Source: Sphingobacterium sp. R2
GTDB lineage: Bacteria; Bacteroidota; Bacteroidia; Sphingobacteriales; Sphingobacteriaceae
DNA length: 64,000 bases
Reading direction: 5' to 3'
NCBI RefSeq assembly: GCF_040760075.1
Contig: NZ_CP142884.1
Span: 2,542,001 to 2,606,000 of the forward strand
Position 1 is the stretch's first letter. Each line of letters starts with the position of its first letter. Below are positions 52,155 through 62,423 of this stretch, piece after piece. The notes under the pieces are model-generated. The model worked only from the letters and a program-made list of their open reading frames with translations, was not told the DNA's origin and made no database searches. Position numbers and translations under genes: made by a program.

Positions 52155-53219
52155 TTATTGTTTTTGTATAATACCATATTTCTTGTTTTGATCGCCTTTG
52201 GCGTTTGCTCCTGCATAGCTATCTAAAATCCGCATGGTGGCCGCTTTTAGGGAACGTCCGAATTCTGTGGGATGATAACCCGGTCCAGTAAAAAATTCCA
52301 CCTCATGATTGATTTTTGAATACCATACTCTTCCTACATCCTTGGGACCTAGGGTATCTGGTCTTGTTATTTTCACAAATCCCTCAAGTTTGTTTTTATC
52401 TAAGCCTATTACTTGATAAGGCTGTGACTTACTCTGACAATCTATCTCAATATATTTTTCTCCATTCCAGCACATGCACTCTTCAGGCGTCAGAAAACGC
52501 ACGATAGTTAATATTGCCAATACCAAAAGTGCTACACCTGAAAACCTCAATATAAGTTTGTTTTTTTTGAAAAATGGTCGGGGATATTTAAATCTGTCAA
52601 TAATTTCCCGATTTTGCCCCATTTCATTTGAGTTGTTTTGAACGTCTAGATCGTCTATTAATTCTTCAGCTTTTTCTTCTTCCGGCTTATCCTGAAGTTC
52701 TTTTTTTTCATCCGTCAATGTAGAACTCATTTGTGAACCTTCCGGTGTTGGATCTTTATCGGTGATAGGGATTGAGGGGGCATCTAGTTTATCAGTCATT
52801 GATGAGCTTTTATCTTCATCTATTGGCGATGTATCTTTAGGCTCATGTAATGTTGAGTTATCATAGCTGTATCGGAATGGCCTCGGCTGGTAGTCTACGA
52901 GTATTGCGAGTAGTTTCACAACTCGGTCTTCAGGATCTTGCGTAATGTTAAGGGCAAATTTCTGCAATGCCTTTAATGACCCAGTATTATATTTCGCTAT
53001 TGCTTCTTCCAAGTTCTTTTCTTTTTTATATGGATCAAAGAACTTTTGTAAAATTTCGATATCCTCGGGCGGTAAACCTTCGGATAATCTAACTAAGCAA
53101 TAATCTCTTAGCTTGGCGGGAGAAGGATTAACTAATAAATCATCCAGCTCATGGTTGTTTTTCTTTGCCTCATATAGGGCAAGAACCTCTTCTTTAAATT
53201 TGGCAAATGTCGTTGGCAT
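52155..53219 (-). CDS. Single-pass membrane protein of unknown function, putative TTACGG-box regulon member
   Basis: 354 residues. An N-terminal cytoplasmic helical domain (about 1-110) is followed by an acidic, Asp/Glu/Pro-rich linker (about 115-205), one membrane helix (LRFSGVALLVLAILTIVRFL, about 223-242) and a C-terminal domain with CMCWNGEKYIEIDCQ (three Cys) and YHPTEFGRSL. No family recognised. A TTACGG-N4-CCGTAA palindrome and a TAATTTTG box lie immediately upstream; the box is so close to the ATG that the mRNA would be nearly leaderless. Confidence 0.7.
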   Translation of the reverse strand: MPTTFAKFKEEVLALYEAKKNNHELDDLLVNPSPAKLRDYCLVRLSEGLPPEDIEILQKFFDPYKKEKNLEEAIAKYNTGSLKALQKFALNITQDPEDRVVKLLAILVDYQPRPFRYSYDNSTLHEPKDTSPIDEDKSSSMTDKLDAPSIPITDKDPTPEGSQMSSTLTDEKKELQDKPEEEKAEELIDDLDVQNNSNEMGQNREIIDRFKYPRPFFKKNKLILRFSGVALLVLAILTIVRFLTPEECMCWNGEKYIEIDCQSKSQPYQVIGLDKNKLEGFVKITRPDTLGPKDVGRVWYSKINHEVEFFTGPGYHPTEFGRSLKAATMRILDSYAGANAKGDQNKKYGIIQKQ

Positions 53220-53224
53220 GGCAT

Positions 53225-53268
53225 CAAAATTAAGCTAATTCTACAACGGAATTTACGGAATCCCGTAA
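53225..53268 (-). promoter_or_regulatory. TTACGG-box promoter 1 (upstream of the 354-aa membrane protein)
   Basis: TTACGG-N4-CCGTAA at 53253-53268 (perfect 6-bp arms). On the minus strand, 20 bp then separate it from TAATTTTG (complement of 53225-53232). The arrangement is the same as in promoters 2 and 3. Confidence 0.6.
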
Positions 53269-53439: not shown

Positions 53440-53466
53440 ATGAGAAGATCTCGCGGTAGTCTTTAG
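53440..53466 (+). CDS. Possible 8-codon leader peptide
   Basis: ATG-initiated frame encoding MRRSRGSL and then TAG, five bases before the first strong stem of the leader. Arg-rich leader peptides can couple translation to folding of a downstream RNA. There is no independent evidence of translation. Confidence 0.25.
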   Translation: MRRSRGSL

Positions 53467-53470
53467 CCGG

Positions 53471-53575
53471 TTTGGGAAGCAGCTTCTGCCTCCCGCGATT
53501 GACACTCTTACTTCCCAAAAAATTCAGAAGGCCTTCTGAAAACATTTGTAGCAATCCCGTGCATGGTGCACGGGA
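53471..53575 (+). ncRNA. Strongly structured leader RNA or small RNA
   Basis: Three perfect stems in 105 bases: TTTGGGAAG (53471-53479) with CTTCCCAAA (53511-53519); the 18-bp palindrome TTCAGAAGGCCTTCTGAA (53523-53540); and TCCCGTGCA with TGCACGGGA around a TGG loop (53555-53575). They lie between a predicted promoter and a 53-codon gene. It does not match any riboswitch I can name. Confidence 0.5.
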
Positions 53576-53609
53576 CCTACCAAGTTTTTGACTTTTAATT
53601 TTTTGAGTT

Positions 53610-53771
53610 ATGTGGAGTTTAATATTATATTTTTTATTTGGAATCGGTCAACCTTCTAATTCACAACCGAACACTGGCGCACCAACAGTGCAAACAGCAG
53701 ACGCAACGCCGCCTGTAGATCCAGGAGATAACGGGGGAGATGGCGGCACAGTTCGCCCCCCTAGAAAATAA
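53610..53771 (+). CDS. 53-residue secreted peptide, Pro/Gly/Asp-rich
   Basis: Starts MWSLILYFLFGIGQPSNSQP, a short hydrophobic N-terminus that could be a signal or anchor. A low-complexity tail follows with TPPVDPGDNGGDGG and a basic end (VRPPRK). It is bounded by the structured leader and an excellent terminator and sits 102 bp before the histidine-kinase gene. No family recognised. It could be a signal peptide for the neighbouring kinase, or the translated end of a regulatory RNA. Confidence 0.5.
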   Translation: MWSLILYFLFGIGQPSNSQPNTGAPTVQTADATPPVDPGDNGGDGGTVRPPRK

Positions 53772-53787
53772 TTAATTTAAATATTGA

Positions 53788-53816
53788 AAAGGCAGCATCT
53801 CGCTGCCTTTTTTATG
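53788..53816 (+). terminator. Terminator of the 53-aa peptide transcript
   Basis: AAAGGCAGC and GCTGCCTTT pair around a 5-nt loop, followed by a T-run, 16 bp after the stop. Confidence 0.9.
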
Positions 53817-53873: not shown

Positions 53874-55556
53874 GTGAAGTATCTATATCTCCTAATAGCG
53901 TTTTCATTTTTTTCTTGTGTTCGTACCGAACAAAACGCTAGTATGAAAAAAGTTAATTCTTATTATGAATTAGCTTATGACCTTCTTGATGCTGGAAAAT
54001 CGGACTCTTCATTTTATCTATTCGAAAAAGCAAAGCAAACCTTTTTAGACAATAAAGATAGCTTGGGCGTTGCAAAATGCTTGGTAAATATGGCGATCAC
54101 ACAACGAGAAAAAGGAGATTTATTCGGTGCACAAGAAACATCATTGGAAGCACTTAAATATTTGGACAAAAACAAACCTAATAACCGTATTTATCTTAGT
54201 ACTAATTATAATAATCTAGCTATGTCATCTCATAGTTTGCAGGACTACAAAAGTGCATTAGAATTTTTTGATCTTGCAATAATCTTTTCAGACGACTCAT
54301 TAAACACTAACATTTTTTTAAATAATTTGGCATTAAGTTACATGCAGTTAGATGATTTTGATTCTGCAGTAAAAATCTATCAAAAAGTTATTCAAAAGGT
54401 CAAGAGTGATCCCAAATCATACGCCCGAGTATTATCTAATTTAGCTATTGCCAAATGGAAAAGATCAAAAGATTATAATCCCGTACCTGAACTCCGAAAA
54501 GCACTGCTTATAAGAGAAAAAGAATCGGATTTGTGGGGGGAAAACTCGAGTTATGCATGGCTTTCTGATTATTACCAAGATAGGAAGCTAGATTCCTCTC
54601 TATATTACGCTAGAAAGCAATTCTCGATTGCAAAACAAATTAATAGTGGTGATGATCAGATTAAAGCTATAGAACGATTAATTAAAGTCATTAGTCCAGA
54701 TTCCGTGACATTGTATTTTAATCAGTATAAACTTATCTCTGACAGCATCCAACAGGCCCGAGCAGCCGCCAAAAACCAATTTGCGCTGATCCGTTATGAA
54801 GTTGAAAAAAATAAAGCCGATAACCTGCGGCTGGAAAAAGAAAATGCCGAAAAGCAGAACCGCCTAGTTAGACAGCGCGCCATTACCGGCGCAAGTATCT
54901 TTTTACTCCTACTAGCTGTTGGTGGAGGGGCGCTTTGGTACAAACGACGCAAGCAACGTCTTGAACTGGAAGCACAGAATCGGGTTAAAGAAACGCAGCT
55001 TCATCTTTCAAAGAAGGTACATGATGTTGTAGCAAACGACATTTATCATGTGATGACGGAAGTTGAATATCGAGATGATCTGGATCGTGAAGTGCTGCTT
55101 GATAAATTAGAAATTATTTACAACCAATCGCGGGATATCTCACATAACGTTGAGCAACGGCCTACCGTTGAAGTTCCATATAATGAGCAAATTTCTACAT
55201 TACTTAAGCCCTATGGCTCGAACAGTCGTCGTATATCGATCGTTGGAATTGATGCTGAGCAATGGTCCGATGTCAGTAAGCGCATTAGAGAAGAAATAAA
55301 ACATATACTACAAGAGTTTATGGTCAATATGAAAAAGCATAGTGGGGCCGAGCGGGTCGTCGTGCGCATTGAAAAATCTGACCAACAGCTTAAAATTTTT
55401 TATAAAGATAATGGTGTTGGCCTACCAGCAGAAAGACCTCAGGGAAAAGGTATGGCGAATACGGTTTCCCGTATTGAAAGTCTAGGTGGCGGAGTTATCT
55501 TTGTCAGTGAACCGGGAGAAGGGCTCAGCATTACTGTCAATATCCCATTAATATAA
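53874..55556 (+). CDS. TPR-containing sensor histidine kinase
   Basis: 560 residues from a GTG start that gives a lipoprotein-like signal (SFFSCVRTE). Residues about 25-265 are TPR repeats; a coiled coil (about 280-330), a membrane helix (AITGASIFLLLLAVGGGALWY, about 333-353) and the kinase core follow. The core has a phospho-acceptor His383 in SKKVHDVVANDIYH, N-box FMVNMKKHSGAERV and G1 DNGVGLPAERPQGKGMANTV (from 512). This is the LiaS/NarX-like (HisKA_3-type) layout common in Bacteroidota. It is followed after 13 bp by its LuxR-type response regulator. The signal is unknown. Confidence 0.9.
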   Translation: MKYLYLLIAFSFFSCVRTEQNASMKKVNSYYELAYDLLDAGKSDSSFYLFEKAKQTFLDNKDSLGVAKCLVNMAITQREKGDLFGAQETSLEALKYLDKNKPNNRIYLSTNYNNLAMSSHSLQDYKSALEFFDLAIIFSDDSLNTNIFLNNLALSYMQLDDFDSAVKIYQKVIQKVKSDPKSYARVLSNLAIAKWKRSKDYNPVPELRKALLIREKESDLWGENSSYAWLSDYYQDRKLDSSLYYARKQFSIAKQINSGDDQIKAIERLIKVISPDSVTLYFNQYKLISDSIQQARAAAKNQFALIRYEVEKNKADNLRLEKENAEKQNRLVRQRAITGASIFLLLLAVGGGALWYKRRKQRLELEAQNRVKETQLHLSKKVHDVVANDIYHVMTEVEYRDDLDREVLLDKLEIIYNQSRDISHNVEQRPTVEVPYNEQISTLLKPYGSNSRRISIVGIDAEQWSDVSKRIREEIKHILQEFMVNMKKHSGAERVVVRIEKSDQQLKIFYKDNGVGLPAERPQGKGMANTVSRIESLGGGVIFVSEPGEGLSITVNIPLI

Positions 55557-55569
55557 AGATGATTGTTGT

Positions 55570-56235
55570 ATGTTTAAAAAAGTACTTATTGCCGAAGACC
55601 ACGATACAGAAAATTTTGCAGTACAAGTAACACTGCGAGACTTGGGAGTAGTTGATCCCGAATATGTTTATTATTGTGATCATGCCTTCGCTTGGATTAA
55701 GAATGCTATCCGTGCCGGAGAACCATATGACCTACTTATTACCGACATTAATTTTAAGGATGATGGTTCTGATCAGGAGATTCAGGATGGACTTTCGCTG
55801 ATTAAAGCAGTTAAAGCTATTCAGCAGGATATTAAAGTTGTTGTAATGACCGTGCAAGAAATCACGACAGTAATCCATGAAATGTTCAAGGAAAAACAAA
55901 TTGATGGTTATGTTTTGAAGGCACGCCGCGGAAGAGAGCATCTAAAAGAAGCCCTCCAGATGGTGTATCAAGGTAGAACATATCAATCTGCAGATAATAA
56001 GAAGGCTGTCCAAGATCTAAATGCATTTGAATTCTCCCAGCTTGACTTACAGATTGTTAATTTATTATATCAAGGTATTCCACAATATCAGATGCCTGAA
56101 ATACTCAAACAGTTAGGTGCTAAAGCTTCCAGCCTGAGCACAATCGAGAAGCGCCTTAATCTGATGAAAGAATCTTATGGTTTCACCAACAATGCCCAGC
56201 TAATTGCACACTGTAGAGATGCTGAGCTGATATAA
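55570..56235 (+). CDS. LuxR/NarL-type response regulator
   Basis: 221 residues: receiver with acidic pocket AEDHD (residues 8-12), phospho-acceptor Asp59 in DLLITDINF, Thr in VVMTVQE and Lys in YVLKARRG. The C-terminal helix-turn-helix (FSQLDLQIVNLLYQGIPQYQ, then LSTIEKRLNLMKESYGFTNN) is a divergent LuxR type. NarL-class regulators bind short inverted repeats, which fits the TTACGG-N4-CCGTAA palindrome; the nearest copy begins 9 bp after its stop codon. Confidence 0.88.
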   Translation: MFKKVLIAEDHDTENFAVQVTLRDLGVVDPEYVYYCDHAFAWIKNAIRAGEPYDLLITDINFKDDGSDQEIQDGLSLIKAVKAIQQDIKVVVMTVQEITTVIHEMFKEKQIDGYVLKARRGREHLKEALQMVYQGRTYQSADNKKAVQDLNAFEFSQLDLQIVNLLYQGIPQYQMPEILKQLGAKASSLSTIEKRLNLMKESYGFTNNAQLIAHCRDAELI

Positions 56236-56244
56236 CTTTTTCCA

Positions 56245-56289
56245 TTACGGTTTTCCGTAAAGACTCTTGAGGGTATCGTGCTACCTTTG
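56245..56289 (+). promoter_or_regulatory. TTACGG-box promoter 2 (possible small RNA)
   Basis: TTACGGTTTTCCGTAA at 56245-56260, then 21 bp, then TACCTTTG (56282-56289). No gene of useful size follows before the terminator at 56390. Confidence 0.6.
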
Positions 56290-56295
56290 TGAAAG

Positions 56296-56420
56296 CAAGA
56301 TAAATAAAGAGGTAGGAATATTTGCTGAAAACGATATCTACTGCATTCAAGATATTTAATGCCATATTTTAACCAATAAGATGATGAGAAAAGGCTATCG
56401 TAGGATAGCCTTTATTTGTT
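56296..56420 (+). ncRNA. Candidate small RNA between the response regulator gene and its downstream hairpin
   Basis: About 120 nt from the predicted start of promoter 2 to the terminator. The stretch has only frames under 21 codons. Its 5' and 3' ends are inferred; expression is unproven. Confidence 0.4.
56390..56420 (+). terminator. Terminator hairpin downstream of the response regulator
   Basis: AAAGGCTAT and ATAGCCTTT pair around a 6-nt loop, followed by ATTTGTTT. Confidence 0.75.
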
Positions 56421-56475: not shown

Positions 56476-56964
56476 TTAATCAGCCGGATTTGAAAAGGTA
56501 TTTATTGAGTTTAGTGCATAGTAAGCGATCCCATTGTCAGGATATTGTTTCAGAATTTCTTCGTAGAGCGCTTTTGCTTTTTCGGCTTGCCCGACCTGCA
56601 CATAACAGAATGCGATATTACAAAGTGCCATTTCCCGATAACACATTTTTGAGGCACTCAACATCGTCAATGCACGATACTTGTCTACCCATGCGTTTCT
56701 AGTAAAAAAATCAAGACTCAGCTCAAAATGTTCTAAAGCCGCTTTGAAATCCTTCTGTTTGATAGCCTTCATTCCTTTGTTATGGCTTGAGGGAATAAGC
56801 TGTTGCAACAAAATAAATAACCCAGAAAATAAAACCACACCTATGAAAATTCCATGTTTTTGGAATAGAATTGTAAAAAATGCTATAAAAACAGCCCACA
56901 CCAAGATGATGATTAGTATAGCAGACTGGGATACTTGCCGAACAATAGGAACATTTGCGCTCAT
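56476..56964 (-). CDS. Two-helix membrane protein with TPR repeats
   Basis: 162 residues. Two adjacent membrane helices (AILIIILVWAVFIAFFTILF, about 15-34; IFIGVVLFSGLFILLQQLI, about 39-57) precede two to three TPR-like repeats (KGMKAIKQKDFKAALEHFEL, then ALCNIAFCYVQVGQAEKAKA). It lies on the opposite strand between the two-component genes and the PLD operon. TPR domains make protein contacts, so it may be part of the same envelope system; that is inference. Confidence 0.7.
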   Translation of the reverse strand: MSANVPIVRQVSQSAILIIILVWAVFIAFFTILFQKHGIFIGVVLFSGLFILLQQLIPSSHNKGMKAIKQKDFKAALEHFELSLDFFTRNAWVDKYRALTMLSASKMCYREMALCNIAFCYVQVGQAEKAKALYEEILKQYPDNGIAYYALNSINTFSNPAD

Positions 56965-57092: not shown

Positions 57093-57137
57093 TTACGGGA
57101 AACCGTAGAATCTCGGTTACGGTTTTTGATAGTTTTG
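57093..57137 (+). promoter_or_regulatory. TTACGG-box promoter 3 (PLD/vWA/nuclease operon)
   Basis: TTACGG-GAAA-CCGTAG at 57093-57108 (11 of 12 arm bases match), then 21 bp that include a further TTACGG half-site (57117-57122), then TAGTTTTG (57130-57137), 59 bp before the first start codon. Confidence 0.6.
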
Positions 57138-57196: not shown

Positions 57197-59317
57197 ATGA
57201 ACACAGATCAACTGATCCAAGATACACTCTCCGATAGCAGAGTCATCTACGAACGTGTTAGGCAAGAACTTTCTAAAGCTCGATCCGAAGTTCTGATAGC
57301 AATGGCCTGGTTTACCGATAATGAATTGTTTGCCACAGTTCAGGGATGCCTTGATCGTCACGTTAAAGTTTCTATTATTATCTCCGATCAGCCCGATAAT
57401 GAAAAGCTTGATTTTTCACTTTTAGAAAAGCAGGGGGCTGAAGTAACCAAGGTCAAGAATGTCGGCTGGAGAATTATGAATCAAAAGTTCTGCGTGATCG
57501 ATCAGAGCGTAGCCATAACAGGATCCTATAATTGGAGCAACAACTCCAAAAGTAACAACCATGTTAGCGTCATCGTGACCAATTACCCGAAGACCATTTC
57601 GGAGCTTACAGAAACTTTTCATGGAATCCGCACGAGGGCCATACGAATCAATAATGGTGAATCTTTGGAAGATATCATCTCATCTGAAAAACTAGAAATA
57701 CCCATGCAGACGAAATTAGAAAATCAAACCTCGAGATACAAGGTGTCATCGGACAGAGATCTTAATTTTCAGCAGCAGTCCTTAAAAGAGTTTAAAGACG
57801 TGCTGGATAATATTATAGCTTCGGAGGTCGGCGCTTTTGATAAAGATTTAGTCAAACAGAGCGGGTATAATCGGGCCAAAGAAAACAATGGGGATCATCA
57901 GATACTTCACCAGGCGATGGACAGTCTTTACTCCAATTTTATCAATGAAATTGAAGTCATTGCCGAGAAGAAGGAGCGCTTGAAAGTCCGTATTGACGAA
58001 CAGCAAAAGGTGAGTACGACCAATATGGAATTTAAGACCGAACAGGTAGTCGAAAAGATCAAAACCAATACAACCTTCGATCAGCAGAACCTGGATTCGG
58101 ATATCAACATCTTGACAACAAAAATTGAAGAGAAGCGTCTGCAGATCAGCTCCAGCAATAATACCAAGATACCATTTTTAGAAAGCAAGATCGTAGCACT
58201 GAAGCAAAAGATTAGGGAGCTTGAAGTGGAGTTTGTAAAACCCAGTGTCAATAAACCTGTGATGGCCATACTGATAGCAACTACATTGCTGCTTGCCCTC
58301 TATATCTTTGTATTCTATTCTTCGGTAGCCTACATCTTTGTTTTTTCGAAAGAAGATATCAATAAAATGATTTTGATGGGAGCTGCCAATATTGAATCAC
58401 CTGAAGTATTCAATCCACATGCGATCTCCAAAATAGGGCAGAAGGGATTGGGTGGTATACTATTCCTTTTTCTTTTTGTCGCCATTCCCTTGGCATTAGG
58501 GATGTATAAAGTGTTTAAAGACCTATTTGATTCAAAAGAAAAAGTAGAAACATCCAATAGGAGTATCTGGCAGAAAATTAAAGGTGGCTTTATTGACAAC
58601 TTGGGAATTATTCTCATCGTCGTTGTCGATATTTTTATTGCTTTTAAGGTATCAAAAAACATCAATGACATCGAGCTGTTGACCAATCAGACAGACCAGC
58701 ATCTTACCTTGTCAACCGTATTCCGGGACAGTAATTTTTGGCTGGTATTTATACTCGGAGCTTTGGGCGTTTTTCTATTTGGTTTCTTCTTTGAAAAACT
58801 ATTGGCTCAGATCAACGAGCGTAATCTGTCCTTCCAACAACAGAAAACCAAACATATCGTACAGAGCCATCAGGCTGAAATCGAAGAATACCAAGAGCAG
58901 ATCAATACGATCCAGCTCGATAACGATGCATTGCAGTCAGAACTCTTTGCATTGCAGGTCAACAAAGAAGAGAAGATAACACAGGTGCAGCAGCTGCCCA
59001 TTCAACAGAACGAGCGAGTAGGAAGCTTACAGCATCAATTATTGACCTTCAAAGAGCGCATTAGCAATATCGGACAGATTTATAAGAGCCAGATTGACAA
59101 TGATAAGTTGCCTATTTCCAAAGCCGAGATGGAAAATAGGGTCAATATCTATATGGAAGGATGGAGCAAATATTTATATGAAGTATACGCCATTCTTAAA
59201 GCCGAAAATAAAACCCGTGAAGCCGTAGGGGAATGTGAGGCTTGGTTGTCGAATCTAGGATTGCAATCTGATATCAAACATGAACTTTTAGAAGACCTTA
59301 CAGCTTTTAACAACTAA
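57197..59317 (+). CDS. Degenerate phospholipase-D-like domain fused to a coiled-coil, four-helix membrane protein
   Basis: 706 residues. Residues about 10-150 form one PLD-like domain, but the HKD motif reads MNQKFCVIDQSVAITGSYNW: Lys97, Asp102, Ser110 and Asn112 are kept and the catalytic His is replaced by Asn95. Residues about 240-350 are coiled coil. Four membrane helices lie at about 356-380, 415-433, 472-489 and 513-533, and a second long coiled coil occupies about 540-650. An enzyme role is therefore doubtful; a binding or scaffold role is more likely. First gene of a three-gene operon. Confidence 0.82.
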   Translation: MNTDQLIQDTLSDSRVIYERVRQELSKARSEVLIAMAWFTDNELFATVQGCLDRHVKVSIIISDQPDNEKLDFSLLEKQGAEVTKVKNVGWRIMNQKFCVIDQSVAITGSYNWSNNSKSNNHVSVIVTNYPKTISELTETFHGIRTRAIRINNGESLEDIISSEKLEIPMQTKLENQTSRYKVSSDRDLNFQQQSLKEFKDVLDNIIASEVGAFDKDLVKQSGYNRAKENNGDHQILHQAMDSLYSNFINEIEVIAEKKERLKVRIDEQQKVSTTNMEFKTEQVVEKIKTNTTFDQQNLDSDINILTTKIEEKRLQISSSNNTKIPFLESKIVALKQKIRELEVEFVKPSVNKPVMAILIATTLLLALYIFVFYSSVAYIFVFSKEDINKMILMGAANIESPEVFNPHAISKIGQKGLGGILFLFLFVAIPLALGMYKVFKDLFDSKEKVETSNRSIWQKIKGGFIDNLGIILIVVVDIFIAFKVSKNINDIELLTNQTDQHLTLSTVFRDSNFWLVFILGALGVFLFGFFFEKLLAQINERNLSFQQQKTKHIVQSHQAEIEEYQEQINTIQLDNDALQSELFALQVNKEEKITQVQQLPIQQNERVGSLQHQLLTFKERISNIGQIYKSQIDNDKLPISKAEMENRVNIYMEGWSKYLYEVYAILKAENKTREAVGECEAWLSNLGLQSDIKHELLEDLTAFNN

Positions 59318-59328
59318 TCCATCACCCA

Positions 59329-60300
59329 ATGAAAGTAACTAACATCTTGCCATTAGCCATTTTACCATTTTTTGTTGCTTGTATGAATGACGGTTCCTCC
59401 AAAGAGGAGGAGCTGCCCAATAATCAAGTGACGCTCAAAGACTATAATATTATTATTGCTCCAGATCTCTCCAACCGGATCAATATGGCGCTTTATCCCA
59501 AACCGATCCATGACACGGTTCTGATCAGCAGTTTAATTGGCCATAGCAGTGATCTGCTGACTTTGAATACCCGTCGTTCAGGGCAAGCCGATATTTATAA
59601 AATTGACTTTATCAACCGAGGGATATTGAACGGAACATCATTTGAGCCTAAGAAAATGACCATTGATTTTAATCGATTTGAAAACAACCAAATGGATCGG
59701 GTCAAATACATTCGCCAAGGATTGAAAGCTGACGAACAGCAGTTTTCTGACGAAGTGAAACGGGTATACGACTATTCCTTAAAAAATCAGACGGGCGCCG
59801 ATGTCTGGAATTACTTCAATGAAACAGTAAAAGTCTCCCTGGTAGATGCTTCCCCAAAGCGCATACAAAGTGATAACAATATACTTGTTGACAAAAAAAA
59901 CAACAATGTCGTTTTGCTTTTGACTGATGGTTACCTTGAGAATGCCAATAAGGGAAAGGGCTATCGCTTAGACCCTGCATTAATTGCTAAGATCCGCCAG
60001 GACTTTAAAGCAAGTAGAAAATCTGATCTGGCTGCATTTATTAAAGCTGATTCGGCCTATGCGCTTAATAAGACAGATTTCAACTTAAAAGATGTCAATA
60101 TATTTATTGCTGAGTTAGTTGATCGATCTCTGGATAAATATGGTGTTGCAAAGGAACAGCCGACAGATTTTCAGATTATTAAGGTTGTTTGGGAAAAATG
60201 GCTGAAAGATAGCGGTTCGCCCAATGTCAAAGTTGTTCAGGCTGTCAATACCAAACAGGAGTTTTACCAAGAGTTTGAACAGTTTCTTAAAACACTATAG
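59329..60300 (+). CDS. vWA-like lipoprotein, unknown function
   Basis: 323 residues with a lipobox (FVACMNDGS, Cys18). YNIIIAPDLSNRINMAL (Asp46, Ser48) resembles the start of a von Willebrand A fold with a shortened MIDAS (DxS), and VVLLLTDGYLEN near residue 200 supplies the matching TDG strand. The region between is helical. It sits 11 bp after the PLD-like gene and 5 bp before the nuclease gene, so all three are probably translated from one mRNA. It presumably faces the periplasm and binds a protein partner. Confidence 0.7.
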   Translation: MKVTNILPLAILPFFVACMNDGSSKEEELPNNQVTLKDYNIIIAPDLSNRINMALYPKPIHDTVLISSLIGHSSDLLTLNTRRSGQADIYKIDFINRGILNGTSFEPKKMTIDFNRFENNQMDRVKYIRQGLKADEQQFSDEVKRVYDYSLKNQTGADVWNYFNETVKVSLVDASPKRIQSDNNILVDKKNNNVVLLLTDGYLENANKGKGYRLDPALIAKIRQDFKASRKSDLAAFIKADSAYALNKTDFNLKDVNIFIAELVDRSLDKYGVAKEQPTDFQIIKVVWEKWLKDSGSPNVKVVQAVNTKQEFYQEFEQFLKTL

Positions 60301-60305
60301 GCCAC

Positions 60306-60866
60306 ATGAAAAAATGGGTAAATATAATGATCAAACTGGGCGTAATTGCCCTGTTCTTTCTAATTGTGTTTTTGATGAGCTGTTCACATGCCGAACGCAC
60401 GTTTAGATCGGTAGGTTTTTTGGAGAAGACCAATCTTCCGTATATTGAGGAGGTCAGGGTTTACAAAGTTGTAGACGGCGACACATTTTGGGTTAGGAAC
60501 CGTCAGGGGAATAAAGTGAAAATTAGACTGATCGGTATAGATGCACCTGAGGATAGAAACGCCTTCCATAAAAAGAAACATCCATTTGGAATCGTCTCCA
60601 AAAGGTATCTAGACAGTTTGATTCTCGATAAGAATATTCGGTTGGAATATGATGTGGATTCACTTGATCGTTACGGGAGGACTTTGGCTTATGCTTATCT
60701 TCATGATGTTTTTGTCAACGAGAATATGATCAAGAATGGCTATGCTTTATTGATGACAGTACCACCCAATGTAAGGTATGCTTCACAGCTTGTAGAAGGA
60801 CAAAACCATGCAAGATTAAATCGATTAGGACTTTGGAATTCAGACGCTGTACATAACTTGTATTAA
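60306..60866 (+). CDS. Secreted thermonuclease-like (SNase) lipoprotein
   Basis: 186 residues with a hydrophobic N-terminus and lipobox (FLMSCSHAE, Cys26). The staphylococcal-nuclease fold is complete: KVVDGDTFWV (Asp58-Thr60), VKIRLIGIDAPEDR (Arg74, Asp79, Glu82) and DRYGRTLAYAYL (Arg125), the residues that bind calcium and catalyse phosphodiester cleavage. It should cut DNA or RNA in the periplasm or at the surface. The conserved active site contrasts with the degenerate PLD domain two genes upstream. Confidence 0.92.
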   Translation: MKKWVNIMIKLGVIALFFLIVFLMSCSHAERTFRSVGFLEKTNLPYIEEVRVYKVVDGDTFWVRNRQGNKVKIRLIGIDAPEDRNAFHKKKHPFGIVSKRYLDSLILDKNIRLEYDVDSLDRYGRTLAYAYLHDVFVNENMIKNGYALLMTVPPNVRYASQLVEGQNHARLNRLGLWNSDAVHNLY

Positions 60867-61447: not shown

Positions 61448-61792
61448 CTATACTATTATTTTATAATATATCATACTTAATGTTACTGAAATGAAATTCC
61501 CTAGTAAATAATAGTCATTATAGTCTTTCTCTTCCTTTCTTCCTTCCTCCGTTTTTTCATTGTCAGGACTTTTTAATCTCGTGCCGAGTTTTAGGGCGCC
61601 GAATAAAGTTAGACTATGTGGAAATCCGGCGATTAGGCTATAGGTGAGGAATGCCCTTTCCAATAGACCTTTTAAGATAGATTTTATATCAATTAGATTG
61701 TTTTTTTTATTTTTGGGAGCAATAACCCAAAATATAAAGGTTATGAAAATTTCGATGGTGATTATTAGTAATATTTTACAAACAGTATTCAT
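61448..61792 (-). CDS. Small membrane protein linked to SatD
   Basis: 114 residues with about three hydrophobic helices (LLIITIEIFITFIFWVIA, AFLTYSLIAGFPHSLTLFGAL, LLGNFISVTLSMIYY) around a charged loop KLGTRLKSPDNEKTEEGRKE. Its start overlaps the satD-like stop by 17 bp, so it is translationally coupled. No function known; the codon use is as AT-rich as its partner. Confidence 0.65.
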   Translation of the reverse strand: MNTVCKILLIITIEIFITFIFWVIAPKNKKNNLIDIKSILKGLLERAFLTYSLIAGFPHSLTLFGALKLGTRLKSPDNEKTEEGRKEEKDYNDYYLLGNFISVTLSMIYYKIIV

Positions 61793-62423
61793 AATTTAAG
61801 TTTTTAGCTACATTTAATATTTCTTTAACGGCGAAGTATGATGATATATTTAATGTTTTCTCTCTTTTCCATATTAATGATCTATTTTTATTAAGATGTT
61901 CAGCCACTATCTTATAATCATAATTTTTCAAAAAGCTTGATATTAGCTGATAATCTTTCTCTAATTTCCATTTATCAACGATGTTTTGATAAATTTCAAA
62001 TGAATTGTTGATTATTGTATTACAATTTGCATTATCTATGTCTATGTAAAACCTTTCTTCTTTTGATTTATTATTGTTTAATAGTTTCCTGGCTTTTGTT
62101 AAACCTTTACCAAGCATTTCGAACGCTATGTGATTATTTATATTTGTTTCTATCTCACCATATATCAATACATAGCGTAGTTTTAGTGAAAAATTATTAT
62201 TTATAATAAATTCTTCGAGATCAATAATAACATCGATAGAACTTTTTAAATTTGCTATAATGCCTTGAAACTCATCTCCCAATGTTATTGTTAAAGGCGA
62301 AATCAAATGATCAATATATTTTTTATTAATGTAAGAAGTACATTGTTTGAATCGCTCAATTAGAAGTTCCTGATTATGATTGCTACTTCCAATAATATCA
62401 CTCATTAAAATAAACTGTTTCAT
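61776..62423 (-). CDS. SatD-family protein with C-terminal helix-turn-helix
   Basis: 215 residues. MSDIIGSSNHNQ near the start and SPLTITLGDEFQGI (residues about 42-55) are the hallmark phrases of the SatD family, followed by a mostly helical middle. Residues about 168-205 (YKIVAEHLNKNRSLIWKREK) look like a helix-turn-helix. Two copies of a 22-bp palindrome flank its TATATTTG promoter, so autorepression is likely. Strongly AT-rich, consistent with horizontal origin. Confidence 0.8.
   Translation of the reverse strand: MKQFILMSDIIGSSNHNQELLIERFKQCTSYINKKYIDHLISPLTITLGDEFQGIIANLKSSIDVIIDLEEFIINNNFSLKLRYVLIYGEIETNINNHIAFEMLGKGLTKARKLLNNNKSKEERFYIDIDNANCNTIINNSFEIYQNIVDKWKLEKDYQLISSFLKNYDYKIVAEHLNKNRSLIWKREKTLNISSYFAVKEILNVAKNLNYEYCL

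Follow-up and report, generated by a model that had tools for sequence, protein, structure and literature searches.

We analysed a window of 64,000 nucleotides from Sphingobacterium sp. R2 (contig NZ_CP142884.1), which carries an operon of three genes, denoted G1, G2, and G3, encoding a membrane protein with a phospholipase D (PLD) domain, a vWA-like lipoprotein, and a staphylococcal nuclease (SNase) lipoprotein. On balance, the operon probably serves a two-component locus conserved in Bacteroidota as a variable output cassette, and it might form an inducible barrier to foreign DNA. Sequence comparison gives good support to a regulon in which a two-component system governs defence-like cassettes that replace one another; the anti-foreign-DNA function of the cassette is one that we infer. 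Comparison of loci showed that a TPR-containing histidine kinase and a response regulator adjoin a unit made up of the gene UP2, a structured RNA, and a small peptide gene. A single palindrome marks UP2, the kinase and regulator genes, and, in the downstream cassettes, the leading gene, which in this operon is G1. The context of the operon is explained by elements that an earlier note on this DNA had overlooked: the pair of kinase and regulator, the operator, UP2, the RNA, and the peptide.

The palindrome, TTACGG-N4-CCGTAA with a spacer that is mostly GAAA or TTTC, was found by searching for words shared among intergenic regions. Its core (TACGG-N4-CCGTA) occurs in 141 copies in 60 of the 62 loci compared (1.17 Mb), while four control palindromes occur in 1-3 copies. 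Bases outside the searched core were also conserved (T at -1 in 74 of 85, A at +14 in 72 of 85). The window contains four copies, against 0.02 expected, and all are inside this locus. Most copies (123 of 141) fall in four fixed positions: 56 are in the kinase gene, 36 precede a cassette gene by at most 350 bp, 18 directly follow the regulator, and 13 are upstream of UP2. Only 4 of the 141 are more than 8 kb from the regulator (in 235 kb). With one truncated locus left out, an operator precedes G1 or the first gene of its operon in 17 of 19 G1-bearing loci, and for six G1 genes it lies 43-103 bp upstream. The copy in the kinase gene overlaps an N-T-x-x-R motif, whose Thr and Arg are encoded by ACG and CGT in 56 of 56 kinases with the motif, compared with 20% and 21% usage of these codons in the same kinase genes overall. 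Constraint on the protein does not account for this choice of codons, with the proviso that the kinase sequences are related and not independent.

We compared the locus across the 151 genomes of the host's family. The 15-base perfect form of the palindrome was found in 71 copies in 44 genomes (about 3 for the backward control), and the regulator was found in 55 genomes. Perfect sites were present in 36 of the 55 regulator-positive genomes but only 8 of the 96 regulator-negative ones, and the sites cluster at the regulator locus. Both observations speak against an explanation that we consider quite improbable, namely that a repressor encoded elsewhere, such as a stress or SOS-like regulator, binds the palindrome and that the cassette is damage-responsive and outside the control of this two-component system. 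Such a repressor would fit the repressor-like form of the palindrome and the 8 of 44 perfect-site genomes in which the regulator was not found.

The genes themselves show the same linkage. The ATPase domain of the kinase and the receiver domain of the regulator were both found, as expected of a two-component system. Among the 62 loci, some of which entered the set via G1 or G2, the regulator is present in 59, the kinase in 58, UP2 in 47, the SNase in 24, G1 in 20, G2 in 20, and HsdR_N in 20. G2 is within 7 kb of the regulator in 15 of the 18 G2-bearing family genomes and on a different contig from it in two more. Half of the SNase matches in regulator-positive genomes (19 of 38) lie within 10 kb of the regulator, against 0.17 expected, and 17 of these 19 are on the same strand and downstream of it. 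Other cassettes behind the regulator contain DUF4236, DUF1508, or an SNase alone directly after the regulator, and those in L086, L087, L091, and L100 comprise a vWA-like lipoprotein, a small membrane protein, a tubulin-like protein, and an ATPase-like protein (700-1190 aa). We think it unlikely that the region downstream of the kinase and regulator is a mere insertion hot spot lacking two-component control, with the palindrome serving, for example, for autoregulation or as an integration mark. A hot spot would account for downstream content that differs widely among genomes and for palindromes within the kinase coding sequence and behind the regulator. It would not account for the palindromes at short, promoter-like distances upstream of the first cassette genes and of the divergent UP2, nor for the cassettes running in the direction of the regulator.

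Table 1 Features of the two-component locus, the operon, and the distant RADAR operon (window coordinates unless a locus is named).
Feature	Coordinates	Strand	Description
UP2 (354 aa)	52155..53219	-	Cytosolic N-part, one transmembrane segment, exported C-domain (CMCWNGEKY...WYSKI...FFT), from family alignment
Putative operator TACGGAATCCCGTA	53254..53267	.	35 bp from UP2
Structured RNA (~140 nt)	53442..53581	+	P0/P1, candidate pseudoknot TTTGGGAAG/CTTCCCAAA, hairpins P3 and P4
53-aa peptide open reading frame	53610..53771	+	Hydrophobic N-terminus, GGDGGTVRPPRK end; conserved family right after the RNA
Terminator-like hairpin	53787..53812	+	Between peptide gene and kinase; from sequence
TPR-containing lipoprotein-type histidine kinase	53874..55556	+	Pfam TPR and HATPase_c (3.1e-8)
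Putative in-kinase operator	55460..55473	.	Inside kinase coding sequence, 110 bp before regulator
Response regulator	55570..56235	+	Pfam Response_reg 1.8e-7; putative C-terminal helix-turn-helix
Putative operator TACGGTTTTCCGTA	56246..56259	.	Just after regulator
Terminator-like hairpin	56390..56413	+	Between regulator and convergent TPR gene
Putative operator TACGGGAAACCGTA	57094..57107	.	103 bp upstream of G1
G1 (706 aa)	57197..59317	+	Degenerate PLD, coiled coils, four transmembrane segments
G2 (323 aa)	59329..60300	+	Exported lipoprotein, vWA-like fold, degenerate MIDAS (DLSxR...TDG)
G3 (186 aa)	60306..60866	+	SNase/thermonuclease lipoprotein, catalytic residues intact
RADAR (RdrA/RdrB), VirE-PriCT2, and reverse transcriptase UG39 run	L188:1130-9382 (G000:C1, ~4361130-4369382)	-	Operator upstream

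The operon described in the earlier note is present, with three open reading frames on the plus strand separated by gaps of 11 and 5 bp, and its make-up of a scaffold, a lipid-anchored binding protein, and a nuclease is supported. The three genes are not conserved as a unit: G1 and G2 travel together, and the SNase adjoins them in about half of cases. G1 directly adjoins G2 in every relative examined. Within the family, 18 genomes have G2, 10 of them with an SNase behind it (9 within 1 kb, plus G088), and 70 have the SNase. The note had named two findings that would count against its proposal. One, a nuclease occurring alone, is literally what we found, as most SNase-bearing genomes have the SNase without G2; the other, unlinked neighbours, was not seen for G1 and G2. 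In other relatives, short forms of G1 (422-446 aa) are missing the PLD part and have a separate TerB-like gene or a DUF6804-type gene just upstream. The cytosolic module is thus exchangeable, with the membrane part and G2 constant. Relatives of G1 and G2 in G031 are, by inspection, next to type I restriction genes, and the regulator was not found in that genome. The locus SNases fall into at least two divergent groups in a tree whose outgroup rows were very long-branched and on which no claim rests. A plasmid or phage origin was considered and rejected: neither G1 nor G2 matched a plasmid, and from phage there was a single contig with a weak PLD match. A contig with this operon in a metagenome-assembled genome labelled 'Clostridia' (L065), with a G2 72% identical to that of the window, is probably Sphingobacterium contamination.

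The N-terminal domain of G1 belongs to the PLD superfamily (Pfam PLDc_2, E 9.4e-18). NucT is its closest solved relative (profile E 4.6e-20), and the SACK1 profile also matches. The HxKxxxxD motif of active PLD/HKD nucleases is absent, the corresponding sequence being NQKFCVID. As the earlier note had claimed, the domain is degenerate: the His of HKD is replaced by Asn95 (MNQKFCVID), while Lys97 and Asp102 are kept. Among 11 PLD-bearing G1 sequences, 7 have Asn at this position and 4 have His. Coiled-coil-like stretches flank both sides of the hydrophobic transmembrane segments (residues ~355-373, 418-436, 465-483, and 514-532), and with four such segments the PLD domain and both coiled-coil parts would face the cytosol.

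G2 has the lipobox FVAC and matched no Pfam or NCBIfam family. Its DLSxR and TDG motifs are invariant in 23 sequences; the DxSxS of a MIDAS is absent and the TDG is kept. Of the best PDB matches to a low-confidence model (predicted local distance difference test score, pLDDT, 47), nearly all were vWA domains (Foldseek E 5e-4, prob 0.99). A vWA-like label for G2 seems fair, but a metal-binding label does not. Alignments for structure prediction were shallow because they were built from the window and three related loci. Weak matches of G2 to Retron Ec67 and to coiled-coil proteins in a PDB profile search (E 0.05-0.3) were judged to be chance.

G3, with the lipobox LMSC, matched the SNase family PF00565 (E 1e-21, 77.8 bits against a cut-off of 21). 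The claim of an intact thermonuclease site was borne out: R74, E82, and R125 align to R35, E43, and R87 of S. aureus nuclease (1syb). The catalytic Arg/Glu/Arg are invariant across 23 sequences, and the acidic residues of the Ca site were also found.

In the mechanism that we propose, the kinase would sense an envelope signal, possibly the state of UP2 or the small peptide. The phosphorylated regulator would bind the operator TTACGGGAAACCGTAA, a step proposed solely from position and co-occurrence, and would switch on G1, G2, and the SNase. G1 would be a scaffold in the inner membrane, with a cytosolic PLD domain of doubtful catalytic competence that would bind nucleic acid or lipid. G2 would serve G1 as a vWA adaptor on the periplasmic side, and the SNase, held by its lipid anchor, would cleave DNA there or at the surface. 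The cassette could then be an inducible envelope barrier to incoming phage or other foreign DNA. The most economical reading is action against foreign DNA, given that the partners that replace one another are domains of the nuclease and conflict types.

The host genome contains ten core sites, four of them at this locus, and three others share the GAAA spacer. One GAAA site is upstream of an anti-phage operon, RdrA-RdrB-VirE/PriCT2-reverse transcriptase UG39 (RADAR/UG39; PADLOC matches with E 1.7e-26 to 1.8e-180), at 143 bp from the nearest small open reading frame and 593 bp from RdrA. Distant operators in other genomes are often near type I restriction-modification, TIR, HKD-Snf2 (helicase-PLD), and candidate defence genes. 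The defence role raised in the earlier note gains from this RADAR/defence-associated reverse transcriptase (DRT) site and from the swappable HsdR_N, TerB-like, and DUF1508 neighbours; its anti-foreign-DNA part is our inference. The operon might instead scavenge or remodel extracellular or periplasmic DNA, for nutrient or in biofilm, with the two-component system sensing the envelope or nutrient state. An exported, lipid-anchored SNase with intact residues would suit this, as would the small Cys/His proteins (KYHxxxCRGL) that recur near the locus. We nevertheless find scavenging improbable, as the frequent partners are HsdR_N, TerB-like, DUF1508, and tubulin/vWA cassettes rather than transporters or phosphatases, and the RADAR/DRT operon has the same operator in front of it.

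Several points weigh against an output cassette directed at foreign DNA. The backward control had nine matches in the host genome against ten for the core, so that single distant sites can be chance. PADLOC defence matches were found for 9 of 27 genes adjacent to distant operators, all picked by rule, with the later genes of the same run that stood in at L199 and L217 and an extra gene at L206 left out of the count, and for 6 of 20 same-region controls, which is no clear enrichment. As farther genes in the same regions score similarly, the distant operators sit, by these matches, in defence-rich regions. The SNase is often absent from the cassette, the DNA-binding domain of the regulator is putative and another protein could bind the palindrome, and the vWA fold of G2 comes from the low-confidence model.

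The regulation of bacterial defence genes is poorly known. Here, an orphan operon becomes part of a regulon testable with one purified protein and one oligonucleotide, and if true, the two-component reading shows a way in which Bacteroidota may link the sensing of the envelope with defence-like modules that can be swapped. More tentatively, and with some doubt, the locus could be an undescribed master switch of Bacteroidota immunity, in which the regulator would use one operator to activate both interchangeable envelope/nuclease cassettes and remote anti-phage operons, RADAR/DRT among them. The TPR kinase would read an envelope cue, perhaps the neighbouring RNA-controlled secreted micropeptide.

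The earlier note knew of no described system with this gene set. Likewise, we found no description of the locus in titles and abstracts of the open-licence literature, and its novelty is provisional. In PADLOC, the locus gave only PLD- and SNase-domain matches and no described system, with the kinase, UP2, and a relative's G2 unmatched. G3 shares its fold, the R35/E43/R87-equivalent residues, and export with the SNase/thermonuclease (NucI-like) lipoproteins (PF00565). Unlike these, it sits behind G1-G2 and a shared operator, and its NCBIfam NucI score of 106 is below the 250-bit cut-off. G1 resembles NucT-type and FAM83/SACK1 proteins in having a single PLD domain, which is N-terminal in G1, but differs in the change of the catalytic His to Asn (7 of 11) and in the fusion to coiled coils and four transmembrane segments. 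A FAM83-like scaffold role for G1 is suggested by analogy only. Cassettes of relatives recall the predicted Ter-type (TerB/vWA) stress systems in their TerB-like small proteins and vWA and nuclease domains. However, the TerB match is below cut-off (E 0.037), no TerC, TerD, or TerZ was seen, and the MIDAS of G2 is degenerate; a TerB-system assignment was considered and not adopted. G1 has weak PLD similarity to DISARM DrmC (1.1e-7) and other PLD defence proteins in PADLOC, but no DISARM core genes were seen in the neighbourhood; a DISARM assignment was considered and not adopted. RADAR (RdrA/RdrB) with the UG39 DRT is a separate system elsewhere in the genome, and the shared operator is its only link to the locus.

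Two elements of the locus, the structured RNA and the micropeptide family, are absent from the libraries searched. The conserved RNA element separates UP2 from the kinase. In its alignment of 42 sequences, 91.5% of cells are paired in the proposed helices and both sides change in 23 of 35 pairs. There were 137 compensatory cells, against 38.7 for shuffled data and no more than 43 for the slid controls. The TTGGGAAG/CTTCCCAA helix hardly varies and would form a pseudoknot by crossing P1; by inspection, L145 and L146 have GGAATT/AATTCC there, with pairing kept. No Rfam family matched the RNA in the window or in two related loci, even at E<=1. The RNA usually occurs once per genome and was found in 49 of the 151 family genomes; of 50 copies, 46 precede the regulator by about 2 kb. 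A scan of the phylum detected it in at least three other families, where the loci read have it next to UP2 and the kinase pair. The peptide family (~53 aa) has a hydrophobic N-terminus and an end rich in G/D and PP. UP2 matched no Pfam family, and its predicted structure (pLDDT 40) was too low for use. The UP2-RNA-peptide unit occurs apart from the kinase pair in G127, G096, and G142. About 2.5 kb from the new RNA in L084 (3678-3779, minus strand) is a Flavo-1 small RNA match above the gathering score.

Among neighbouring genes, a convergent TPR membrane protein is encoded between the regulator and G1 (window 56476-56964, minus strand); a similar gene is in the same place in L064, and one such gene is near UP2 in L147. 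In a genome of another family, two response regulators of the regulator's family follow one kinase in tandem (L133:9291-11047). Small exported KYHxxxCRGLxxC proteins, possibly metal-binding, recur beside HsdR_N (L048:12514-12756, L055:5930-6160, and L221:6987-7226). Downstream of the operon, the window contains a SatD-family gene (PF16264) at 61776-62423 on the minus strand.
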